From an uncultured Opitutales bacterium (GTDB lineage Bacteria > Verrucomicrobiota > Verrucomicrobiia > Opitutales > Intestinicryptomonadaceae): a stretch of DNA of 64,000 nucleotides. Numbering within the stretch: position 1 is the stretch's first letter; each line of letters opens with the position of its first letter. This document shows positions 43,791 to 46,753 of the stretch, in pieces. The notes beneath the pieces are model-generated. The model saw only the letters and a program-made list of their open reading frames with translations. It was not told the origin of the DNA and did no database searches. The translations under genes were made by a program, and so were the position numbers. The stretch lies in assembly GCA_944389885.1 (NCBI GenBank), contig CALXNZ010000007.1, positions 1 to 64,000 of the forward strand, read 5' to 3'.

Positions 43791-44069
43791 ATGGCACGTT
43801 CAATAAAAAAAGGTCCTTTTGTCGATCTGGGTCTCCAGAAGAAAATAGACGAAGCGCAGAAGACCAATTCACGCAAGCCGATTCAAACATGGTCGAGGCG
43901 TTCGATGATAACGCCCGATTTCATCGGATTGAACTTCAACGTACACAACGGCAAGAAATTCGTGGCCGTGTATGTGACAGAAAACATGGTGGGACACCGT
44001 CTTGGCGAATTTGCGCCTACGCGCTATTTCAAGGGACACAATCCCCACACTAAAAAGGCTGCGATGTAA
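43791..44069 (+). CDS. rpsS: 30S ribosomal protein S19
   Basis: A 92-residue S19 ([56 protein letters not shown]). It sits in the 30S head. An AAGGAG ribosome site precedes it. Unusually, the next gene is not rplV but a small exported protein 5 bases on. Confidence 0.97.
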
Positions 44070-44074
44070 TTGAG

Positions 44075-44416
44075 ATGGTCGGATTTGGCAAAATAGCGCT
44101 GTTGACGTTAGTGCTGGTTTTCGGCCTAAGCGGGTTCTGTTTTGCCGATTCTCCCAGTTGGATTCTGAAGTCGGAGGCGTCAATGTCGGCAAGAGTGGCG
44201 CGCGTGGACGCGAACACCTCGGCCTACATAGTAGTTCTCGACTCCGGGACGCGCAACAAGCTCGTGCCGGGTATGGTCTGCGACGTATATAGGGAGAAAG
44301 CCCGCGTGGCAAAAGTAGTATTGGTGGAATCCCTGAGCGACAGGTCTGCTGGCCTTATAATATCGGGGGACGACGTCAAAGCAGGCGACATTGCCATTGC
44401 GGTACCGACGCTTTAA
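44075..44416 (+). CDS. Small exported protein inserted in the S10 cluster
   Basis: This 113-residue protein lies between rpsS and rplV, adjacent in nearly all bacteria. It begins with a signal peptide (hydrophobic residues about 8-22, GFCFADS cleavage region), so it should leave the cytoplasm. The mature 85 residues form one beta-rich domain: ARVARVDANTSAYIVVLDSG, NKLVPGMVCDVYREKARVAK and AGLIISGDDVKAGDIAI. The pattern (no paired cysteines, a strand, glycine turn, GM-V-DVYR, then GD near the end) resembles C-terminal barrel domains of the FlgT type and the C-terminal domain of the coiled-coil protein at 61656. It starts 5 bases after rpsS with no good ribosome site, so translation is probably coupled. 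Function is unknown. Confidence 0.75.
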   Translation: MVGFGKIALLTLVLVFGLSGFCFADSPSWILKSEASMSARVARVDANTSAYIVVLDSGTRNKLVPGMVCDVYREKARVAKVVLVESLSDRSAGLIISGDDVKAGDIAIAVPTL

Positions 44417-44441
44417 ACATTTAAAAATATAAGGAAATACA

Positions 44442-44777
44442 ATGGAAGTTAAGGCTTTAACAAAGTTTGCGCGCATGTCCGACAAGAAGGTGCGCGAAGT
44501 GGCCCGCCAGATACAGGGACGCAATGCGGCCGAGGCATTGGAGGTTCTCAAGTTCGTGCCTCGCAAGAGCGCGCGTTTGATAGCCAAGACATTGGCGAGC
44601 GCAATCGCCAACGCCGAGAACAACAACGGCCTGTCGGCGGCTAATCTGAAAATAAAGAGCGCAATAGTGAACCAGGGCATAGCGTTTAGGCGTTTTCGTC
44701 CGGTTGCTCGCGGTTCCGCGCATCCAATAAGAAAGAGGACGAGCCACATTTCGATAGTCCTTAGTGACGAGAAATAA
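44442..44777 (+). CDS. rplV: 50S ribosomal protein L22
   Basis: A 111-residue L22 (KFARMSDKKVREVARQIQGR, then ANAENNNGLSAANLKIKSAI, the tunnel hairpin RRFRPVARGSAHPIRKRTSH). Normal length. An ATAAGGAAA site precedes it, 25 bases after the inserted exported gene, which shows ribosomes can start here independently. Confidence 0.96.
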   Translation: MEVKALTKFARMSDKKVREVARQIQGRNAAEALEVLKFVPRKSARLIAKTLASAIANAENNNGLSAANLKIKSAIVNQGIAFRRFRPVARGSAHPIRKRTSHISIVLSDEK

Positions 44778-44794
44778 TAATTGAGAGGCAAAAT

Positions 44795-45427
44795 ATGGGT
44801 CAAAAAGTAAATCCTAAAGGTTTCCGTCTCGCGGTTCGTCGCGATTGGGAGTCGCGTTGGTATGCGAACAAGGCGGATTATGCCAAGTCGGTCAATGAGG
44901 ACTACCGCATACGCGAATTTCTCAGCGAAAAGCTTAAAGCGGCTGCAGTGCCCCGCATATTCATAGAGAGGGCTGGATCTCGCGTTCGCGTGAAGATATA
45001 CACGGCGCGTCCGGGAGTGGTAATAGGCCAAAAAGGGGCTTCGCTGGAGGCTCTCAAGGCTGAGTTGAGCAAAAAGTTTGGCAAGGAGATACTCCTTGAC
45101 ATACAGGAAGTGAAGAAGCCCGACTTGGTGGCATATCTGGTGGCCGAGAGCATAGCATTGCAGCTTGAAAGGCGCATATCTTTCCGCAGGGCGATAAAGA
45201 AGGCTATAAAGAGCTCTATGGACATGGGAGCCGACGGAATAAAAATCCAATGTTCCGGACGCTTGGGCGGAGCCGAAATAGCGCGCACTGAATGGCAGAG
45301 AAAAGGGCGCATACCCTTGCATACGCTGCGTGAGAATATCGACTACGGCTTTGCCGAGGCGCATACTCTTTACGGGAAAATCGGCGTAAAGTGCTGGTTG
45401 TGCCTGAAACCCGAAGACAACATCTAA
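44795..45427 (+). CDS. rpsC: 30S ribosomal protein S3
   Basis: A 210-residue S3: GQKVNPKGFRLAVRRDWESR, a KH domain (VKIYTARPGVVIGQKGASLE) and the C-terminal ADGIKIQCSGRLGGAEIART with GKIGVKCWL. It helps form the mRNA entry channel. Length and motifs are normal. Confidence 0.97.
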   Translation: MGQKVNPKGFRLAVRRDWESRWYANKADYAKSVNEDYRIREFLSEKLKAAAVPRIFIERAGSRVRVKIYTARPGVVIGQKGASLEALKAELSKKFGKEILLDIQEVKKPDLVAYLVAESIALQLERRISFRRAIKKAIKSSMDMGADGIKIQCSGRLGGAEIARTEWQRKGRIPLHTLRENIDYGFAEAHTLYGKIGVKCWLCLKPEDNI

Positions 45428-45442
45428 ATTTAAGGAACGCAG

Positions 45443-45871
45443 ATGGCAAATATACTTCCCGCAAAGACCAAGTACCGCAAGGTGCAAAAGGGCCGCAATC
45501 GCGGCATGGCAAAAGGCGGCGACACGATAGCTTTTGGCGACTACGCAATGCAGGCTTTGGAAAGAGGCAAATGCTCGTCCTCGCAGCTTGAGGCTGCTCG
45601 TGTGGCCATAAACAGGTATTTCAAGCGCCGCGGCAAAGTTTGGATGCGCGTGTTCCCGCAGAAGAGCGTCACCAAGAAGCCCGCCGAAACCAGAATGGGA
45701 AAAGGCAAGGGAGCTGTCGAATATTGGTGCGCAATAATCAAGCCGGGCACGATACTCTTTGAGGCATCGGGCATTCCGGCCAGCATGGCCAGGGAAGCCA
45801 TGAGGCTCGCCGACGGCAAATTGCCCTTCAGGTGCAGGTTCGTGGTGAGAGAAGGCGTTGAAATCCTCTAA
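45443..45871 (+). CDS. rplP: 50S ribosomal protein L16
   Basis: A 142-residue L16 (PAKTKYRKVQKGRNRGMAKG, then FGDYAMQALERGKCSSSQLE, MGKGKGAVEYWCAIIKPGTI). It sits near the A-site tRNA elbow. A TAAGGAACGC site lies upstream. Normal length. Confidence 0.96.
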   Translation: MANILPAKTKYRKVQKGRNRGMAKGGDTIAFGDYAMQALERGKCSSSQLEAARVAINRYFKRRGKVWMRVFPQKSVTKKPAETRMGKGKGAVEYWCAIIKPGTILFEASGIPASMAREAMRLADGKLPFRCRFVVREGVEIL

Positions 45872-45889
45872 TAATAGGGAGAACGGCAA

Positions 45890-46078
45890 ATGAAGGCAAA
45901 AGAAATAAGAGAACTTTCGGCGGAGGAAATCGGCAAGAAGCTGAGGGATATGCGCGAAGAATTGCTTAATCTCAATATCCGCAAGGCTACGGGCAACGTT
46001 GAAAATCCGGCTCGCATACGTCAATTGCGCCGCGACATCGCCCGCTTGGAAACCGTGAAAGCCCAAAAGAAAGCGTAG
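45890..46078 (+). CDS. rpmC: 50S ribosomal protein L29
   Basis: A 62-residue two-helix protein (EIRELSAEEIGKKLRDMREE, LNIRKATGNVENPARIRQLR, RDIARLETVKAQKK). It lies by the exit tunnel next to L23. The order rplP-rpmC-rpsQ is standard. Confidence 0.95.
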   Translation: MKAKEIRELSAEEIGKKLRDMREELLNLNIRKATGNVENPARIRQLRRDIARLETVKAQKKA

Positions 46079-46087
46079 GATAGCAAG

Positions 46088-46372
46088 ATGGCAGAAGAAA
46101 AGAGAAAAACACGCAGAAGTCTCGTGGGCGTAGTGACGTCGCGCTCGGGAGATAAGAGTATAAAGATTACCTATTTTTATAAGGTTCCGCACGCGTTGTA
46201 TCGCAAGGAGATCCGCCGCAAGACAGTGCTTCACGTTCACGACGAGAAGAACGAATGCGGAATAGGCGACAAGGTAGAAGTGACAGAGACGCGCCCCTTG
46301 AGCAAGATGAAGAGGTTCCGCGTTGTGCGCATAATAGAGAAGGCGCCGGAAACTGCGGCGTCCGCAGAATAA
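46088..46372 (+). CDS. rpsQ: 30S ribosomal protein S17
   Basis: A 94-residue OB-fold protein (RRSLVGVVTSRSGDKSIKIT, HVHDEKNECGIGDKVEVTET, RPLSKMKRFRVVRIIEKAPE). It is slightly longer than E. coli S17 (84) because of a short charged N-terminus and an alanine-rich end. It is 9 bases after rpmC. Confidence 0.95.
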   Translation: MAEEKRKTRRSLVGVVTSRSGDKSIKITYFYKVPHALYRKEIRRKTVLHVHDEKNECGIGDKVEVTETRPLSKMKRFRVVRIIEKAPETAASAE

Positions 46373-46387
46373 GAGGAGGGCATTGCA

Positions 46388-46753
46388 ATGATACAAATGC
46401 AGACAAAACTCGTGGTGGCGGACAACACCGGCGCAAAGGAAGTGACAATGATCCGCAGGCTTGGGCAGTTGAGCCGCACGGCGCATGTTGGCGACGTGAT
46501 AGTAGTGGCGGTAAAATCCTCCTCGCCCGAAGCCGCTGTGAAAAAGGGTTCCGTGGCGAAGGCGGTAATCGTTAGGACAAAGGCGCCGATACGCCGTCCG
46601 GACGGGTCGTACCTTCGTTTCGATTCGAATGCCTGTGTGATATTGGACGGCACCGGCAATCCCAAAGGCACGCGCATATTTGGCCCCGTGGCCAGGGAAT
46701 TGCGCGCAAAGAACTTTATGAAGATAATTTCACTTGCACCGGAGGTTCTCTAA
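46388..46753 (+). CDS. rplN: 50S ribosomal protein L14
   Basis: A 121-residue L14 ([74 protein letters not shown]). It is at the subunit interface. Six of its nine isoleucine codons are AUA, the clearest case of the window's unusual codon use. Confidence 0.97.

Follow-up and report, generated by a model that had tools for sequence, protein, structure and literature searches.

The window, a stretch of 64,000 nucleotides of DNA from an uncultured bacterium of the Verrucomicrobiota, carries the S10 cluster of ribosomal protein genes, whose gene order textbooks cite as frozen, in the local arrangement rplC-rplD-rplW-rplB-rpsS-X-rplV-rpsC-rplP. The gene that we call X (44,075 to 44,416, forward strand) opens with an ATG and encodes 113 amino acids; its ORF, structural model, and homologs mark it as a predicted exported protein with a barrel like that of the FlgT C-terminal domain. 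It starts 5 nt past the stop codon (44,067 to 44,069) of its upstream neighbor rpsS, encoding S19 (43,791 to 44,069, forward strand), and ends 25 nt before the ATG at 44,442 of its downstream neighbor rplV, encoding uL22 (44,442 to 44,777, forward strand), the gene to which X keeps where the operon is split. The next gene of the S10 operon is rpsC (44,795 to 45,427, forward strand). An earlier note, made from the letters of this DNA, had placed an ORF between rpsS and rplV, 5 nt after the former; the coordinates confirm it, and homologs in the same slot of relatives, the substitution bias with its dN/dS values, and a confidently modeled fold together establish that X is real, beyond chance. 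An ORF of 768 amino acids on the opposite strand (44,180 to 46,486) was rejected as spurious; it opposes several ribosomal protein genes and has low codon adaptation.

Residues 1 to 24 of X (MVGFGKIALLTLVLVFGLSGFCFA; 44,075 to 44,146, forward strand) look like a Sec-type signal: a Lys is followed by a strongly hydrophobic stretch at residues 7 to 20 (11-residue Kyte-Doolittle mean 2.87) and then by CFA and D, on either side of the predicted cleavage point, and the structural model has a helix at residues 5 to 17. The signal peptide that the earlier note had read here is thereby retained as a predicted N-terminal export signal, on the hydrophobicity scan and on the relatives, 142 of 145 of which have a strongly hydrophobic N-terminus, nearly all with small residues where cleavage would be plausible. 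Its description of the mature part as a single beta domain also agrees with the AlphaFold2 model, built with 65 homologs, in which residues 38 to 110 (44,186 to 44,404, forward strand) form one six-stranded beta barrel at a pLDDT of about 97. The model of a long-form member likewise has one barrel. Outside the window's order, X occupies the same slot but usually has 240 to 290 residues, made up of the signal, a predicted coiled coil of about 130 residues, and the barrel; members from the order itself lack the coiled coil and keep signal and barrel. Two members from this order (L017 and L025) have 50 to 70 extra residues after the signal and ahead of the barrel, which may be what is left of the coiled coil. 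Residue 69 of X (44,279 to 44,281) is a Cys, as found in 38 of about 42 short forms from the order, and the mature part usually contains no other cysteine or just one more; in the long forms with a coiled coil, this barrel site is mostly Phe, Tyr, or Leu. Perhaps Cys69 supports a disulfide-linked dimer in place of coiled-coil pairing, or perhaps it merely packs the core.

Pfam and NCBIfam yielded nothing above noise for the X protein of the window. In Foldseek, the window model matched FlgT first (3w1e, E 2e-3), and the long-form model matched 8z5n (E 4.4e-5) and FlgT 3w1e (3e-4); in VIA, the best match of the window barrel was the FlgT ring 8z5n (Z 11.4, rmsd 1.4 over 72 aa), with 3w1e at Z 10.8. 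The X model thus has the fold of the FlgT C-terminal barrel, and unrelated F1-ATPase N-terminal barrels are nearly as similar (VIA Z about 11), so that the fold alone is not specific. At the level of sequence profiles, the X barrel matched TsaP best among PDB sequences (E 1.2e-5), and the Pfam FlgT_C family was found weakly in 17 of 27 X barrels (best E 2.2e-5). An example from the class scored 20.6 bits (E 6e-4) against a gathering cut-off of 27 bits, and the window protein had no match to FlgT_C (PF16538) at E values up to 10.

Of 88 genomes from the order of the window, 45 were matched in a search with the single sequence, at 23 to 41 percent identity, and at all 30 order loci that were fetched, the match was flanked by rpsS and rplV. 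A 20-member profile detected the barrel in 196 of 236 genomes of the class, a count that includes other proteins sharing the domain; in one genome of this set, X lies at 357,230 to 357,940 on the reverse strand with rpsS and rplV on either side. When the flanks of the slot were located with a fused rpsS and rplV query, the distance between the two genes proved to be bimodal over 186 distinct loci, with 41 at 12 to 131 nt, 145 at 351 to 1,122 nt, and none between. All 145 distinct readable gaps above 200 nt, drawn from the genus of the window and from more distant relatives as far as other classes of the phylum, contain an X family member and no other gene (worst E 2e-10), and a gap above 200 nt lacking X was not encountered in any genome with a readable junction. 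The earlier note had allowed for the ORF being absent from all relatives; this search of rpsS-rplV neighborhoods in the Verrucomicrobiota found the reverse, and the note's finding understated how widely in the phylum this slot is occupied.

Readable junctions held X in 10 of 10 genomes of the genus and in 3 of 3 from other genera of the family; for the remainder of the order, X was present in 30 and absent in 23, for the remainder of the class present in 33 and absent in 26, and for the remainder of the phylum present in 8 and absent in 11, per-genome counts that are not prevalences, X-less cases having been deliberately sought. Beyond the class, X was found at 7 fetched loci from six families. 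When named genomes were scanned with an Akkermansia-type query, 80 loci came back, 79 of them between rpsS and rplV and one on a contig that ends early; its carriers include Akkermansia muciniphila CSUN-56, Haloferula rosea, Luteolibacter, and Roseibacillus. The genomes include many metagenome assemblies, and start codons were picked by rule. Two genomes of the window's genus (G007 and G010), one of them a single contig, gave no match to rpsS or rplV, which we put down to an assembly gap or masking rather than biology. A full-text literature search retrieved no published account of X, an otherwise undescribed family that is part of the S10 operon over much of the phylum.

In several families from other classes of the phylum, a break exactly at the rpsS/rplV junction divides the S10 operon in 13 of 14 genomes checked (G384, G334, G307, G356, G358, G322, G312, G328, G316, G340, G381, G319, and G344; loci L336 to L363), and the two halves, when a single contig carries them both, stand 37 kb to more than 1 Mb apart. 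An X homolog is found directly upstream of rplV, 1 to 117 nt away, in 11 of these 13 genomes; no X was found in the other two (G334 and G319), and in none of the 13 does X follow rpsS. Ten of the split-operon proteins aligned with the class profile at an hhalign probability of 99.1 (E 4.6e-19) over 210 columns that include the helical part, and with the window-type profile at 97.8. Because X stands next to rplV and never after rpsS once the operon is split, the conserved unit is X-rplV and not rpsS-X, and this retention is the strongest evidence against a gene that is purely trapped inside an essential operon. As expected of an S10 gene, X has a fixed place in the phylum, between rpsS and rplV or immediately before rplV if the two are apart.

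Mapped onto a tree of five ribosomal proteins with 123 rows, the presence of X changes 9 times, 7 of these changes being forced by well-supported branches, as against 34 changes expected with shuffled labels on the same tree. The tree has no outgroup, and gain and loss are not separable from it alone; the pattern fits an early presence followed by clean loss several times over, with ordinary short rpsS-rplV junctions in the lineages that lack X. Since it has been lost in several lineages, X is not generally essential. Pairwise dN/dS values of 0.07 to 0.28 with an excess of third-position changes, taken from close pairs, both of Akkermansia and of several groups within the order of the window, indicate that X is under purifying selection despite a fast divergence that leaves 23 to 39 percent identity even inside the genus. 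A second family, which joins an uncleaved-looking membrane-anchoring helix and a coiled coil to a barrel of the kind found in X, is widespread at other sites in the genomes of the class, in some cases as tandem copies, and its neighbors vary by lineage; at one locus (L293), it lies immediately before mreBCD and a gene for a penicillin-binding protein. Relocation of X after its loss from the slot was considered and rejected, as genomes with a closed gap keep mainly this different, membrane-anchored paralog elsewhere, beside neighbors that differ by lineage.

The earlier note had also held that X has no ribosome-binding site of its own and is therefore probably made in step with ribosomes. The first part stands as an observation, in that no Shine-Dalgarno match was found upstream of X in the window sequence, whereas rplV has a Shine-Dalgarno-like AAGGA (44,431 to 44,435, forward strand); it loses its force across the genomes compared, where such matches are uncommon ahead of X and of rplV alike, and because most relatives also have none before rplV, the missing site is not distinctive. 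The second part may hold for transcription only. The intergenic gap in the window is too short for a terminator, which makes co-transcription of X probable, and the linkage to rplV is conserved; against this, the codon adaptation of X (0.65) is that of other long ORFs of the window (0.64) rather than of the ribosomal genes (0.72), so that translation equal to that of ribosomal proteins is not to be assumed and X may not be abundant. RNA-seq of A. muciniphila has the ribosomal protein cluster Amuc_0294-0308 changing together (PMC11480725). This cluster comprises 16 genes against 15 tags. Counted from ftsH (Amuc_0348), X would fall near Amuc_0300, a suggestive placement from an approximate count of 39 to 51 ORFs depending on the cut-off, and by its position it should lie inside the co-moving cluster, which again is suggestive only.

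These observations can be brought together in a model to which we give about an even chance, namely, that X is an envelope scaffold or anchor coexpressed with the S10 operon, the supply of which tracks growth. X would be an envelope family that became part of the operon early in the phylum's history, transcribed on the mRNA of rplV and rpsC and exported to the periplasm by its N-terminal signal. With X and the ribosomal genes on what is probably one mRNA, the supply of X would follow ribosome synthesis and growth, and would thus be proportional to the growth rate, a linkage that may carry an advantage of its own. In the periplasm, it might serve as scaffold or anchor for a complex of the outer membrane or cell wall, a role that this type of barrel has in FlgT and TsaP; this is our best inference from the fold and from remote similarity, and we draw it because both fold and profile match these two proteins, which surround outer-membrane rings. 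In the window's order, the coiled coil would have gone, leaving mainly the barrel. Counting against a scaffold, the presence of X follows neither secretin nor MreC genes.

Direction is the point on which we depart furthest from the earlier note, which had proposed that envelope or secretion status controls ribosome synthesis. No sensor or feedback element was seen in the sequence; the conserved part of X is its folded mature barrel rather than any leader or arrest sequence, and losses of the gene have occurred several times. The simpler direction is that ribosome synthesis sets the supply of an envelope protein. A mechanism for the opposite direction would be a secretion-responsive leader of the SecM, VemP, or MifM kind, in which export of nascent X tunes translation of rplV and rpsC. 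Its position immediately upstream of rplV with an export signal, the gaps of 1 to 25 nt between X and rplV in many genomes, the weak or absent ribosome site, and the place of X as first gene of the detached rplV operon all speak in its favor, but conservation resides in the folded mature barrel, the C-termini vary with no shared arrest-like peptide visible by eye, and lineages without X make do with ordinary short rpsS-rplV junctions, so we regard such a leader as improbable. The same low weight attaches to a wider, phylum-specific growth-envelope circuit in which X, tied genetically to rplV through much of the past of the phylum, would be the physical link, its export or abundance feeding back on rplV-rpsC translation and matching ribosomes to envelope capacity. 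Least probable of all, and scarcely credible to us, is that co-translational export of X serves chiefly to hold the rplV-rpsC transcript at the membrane (transertion), the protein itself being secondary: the signal and the adjacency to rplV in intact and split operons would suit such a tether, yet the purifying selection and conserved fold of the mature part imply that the protein matters.

More serious, though we still think it doubtful, is the view that X is a functional exported protein whose place means nothing, inserted once by rplV and kept there by the risk of removal and a strong promoter. The repeated clean losses (at least 7 changes are forced on the tree), the quick divergence within a genus, and the average codon adaptation are all compatible with such a passenger; it accounts poorly for the retention of X as upstream neighbor of rplV in 11 of 13 split genomes, at an edge where loss should be easy, and for the gap never having been found to hold any other gene. 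A role as a soluble MreC relative in the elongation machinery that shapes the cell is unlikely. MreC structures are among the Foldseek matches of X, the plan of coiled coil plus barrel is shared, mreBCD follows directly on one membrane-anchored paralog, and weak matches to the MreC Pfam family, at E values up to 0.1 (best 2.4e-4), were seen for 3 of 27 class barrels; against these stand the single barrel of X, its apparent cleavage in place of an anchor, and the presence of a regular MreC in 77 of 80 genomes. Two searched Akkermansia genomes (G238 and G120) have X and no MreC family match, nearly all others tested having MreC, and as a general rule, MreC was rejected both as a partner of X and as something for which X substitutes.

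That an exported family should be stable in the S10 operon across much of a phylum and keep to rplV after the operon has split is hard to attribute to chance, and the linkage suggests an envelope part produced in step with ribosomes. If X is indeed made in proportion to ribosomes, it would represent a testable case of growth-rate-coupled envelope supply, for which A. muciniphila, a culturable gut bacterium of the phylum, is available. X also provides a handle on the unannotated envelope biology of the phylum and a clear evolutionary marker.

Among known systems, MreC (PF04085) resembles X in its coiled coil followed by a barrel and in structure, and differs in being anchored with a double barrel where X looks exported and cleaved with one; X lacks the combination of membrane anchor, coiled coil, and double barrel, and the window protein has no match to the MreC model (cut-off 28 bits). 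Secretion monitors such as SecM, VemP, and MifM are exported products encoded directly before the gene that they regulate. X resembles them by its position and predicted signal only; it has a conserved folded mature domain, and the alignments show by eye no arrest-like motif shared past the last barrel strand. The stlA gene of an Akkermansia-like metagenomic clone was rejected as a version of X, having been reported to lack homologs and to encode four transmembrane segments (PMC3861447).

The nearest likenesses are to accessory proteins of envelope rings. The C-terminal domain of FlgT from the Vibrio flagellar H ring (PF16538; 3w1e, 8z5n) is a six-stranded periplasmic barrel, as in X, but X is a single barrel without the other FlgT domains and is encoded among ribosomal genes. 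Akkermansia is non-motile, and its carriage of X speaks against membership in a flagellar H ring. TsaP, associated with the type IV pilus secretin (3jc8), is the best sequence-profile match to X among solved structures and a periplasmic accessory of an outer-membrane ring, to which X may be likened in its barrel profile. TsaP is listed in the PDB as a LysM domain protein, whereas no LysM is visible in the window's X or in the 25 Pfam families matched most often by 32 long members. FlgT encircles the Vibrio motor as a ring, and TsaP lies at the type IV pilus secretin (PMC7693769, PMC4471445). A secretin as the partner of X was rejected for want of correlation: most genomes with and without X have one, and it is missing in one X-less family and in one 80-percent-complete genome with X. 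As regards gene order, the insertions discussed in the part of a survey of Gammaproteobacteria and Bacilli available to us sit between operons or in rpoBC (PMC8046335). In its situation, X is comparable to non-ribosomal genes held in the S10-spc-alpha region. Such residents of ribosomal operons comprise secY, itself a secretion gene, adk, map, infA, and rpoA; X stands apart from them as a predicted exported protein encoded in the middle of S10 and known from this phylum, the one searched.
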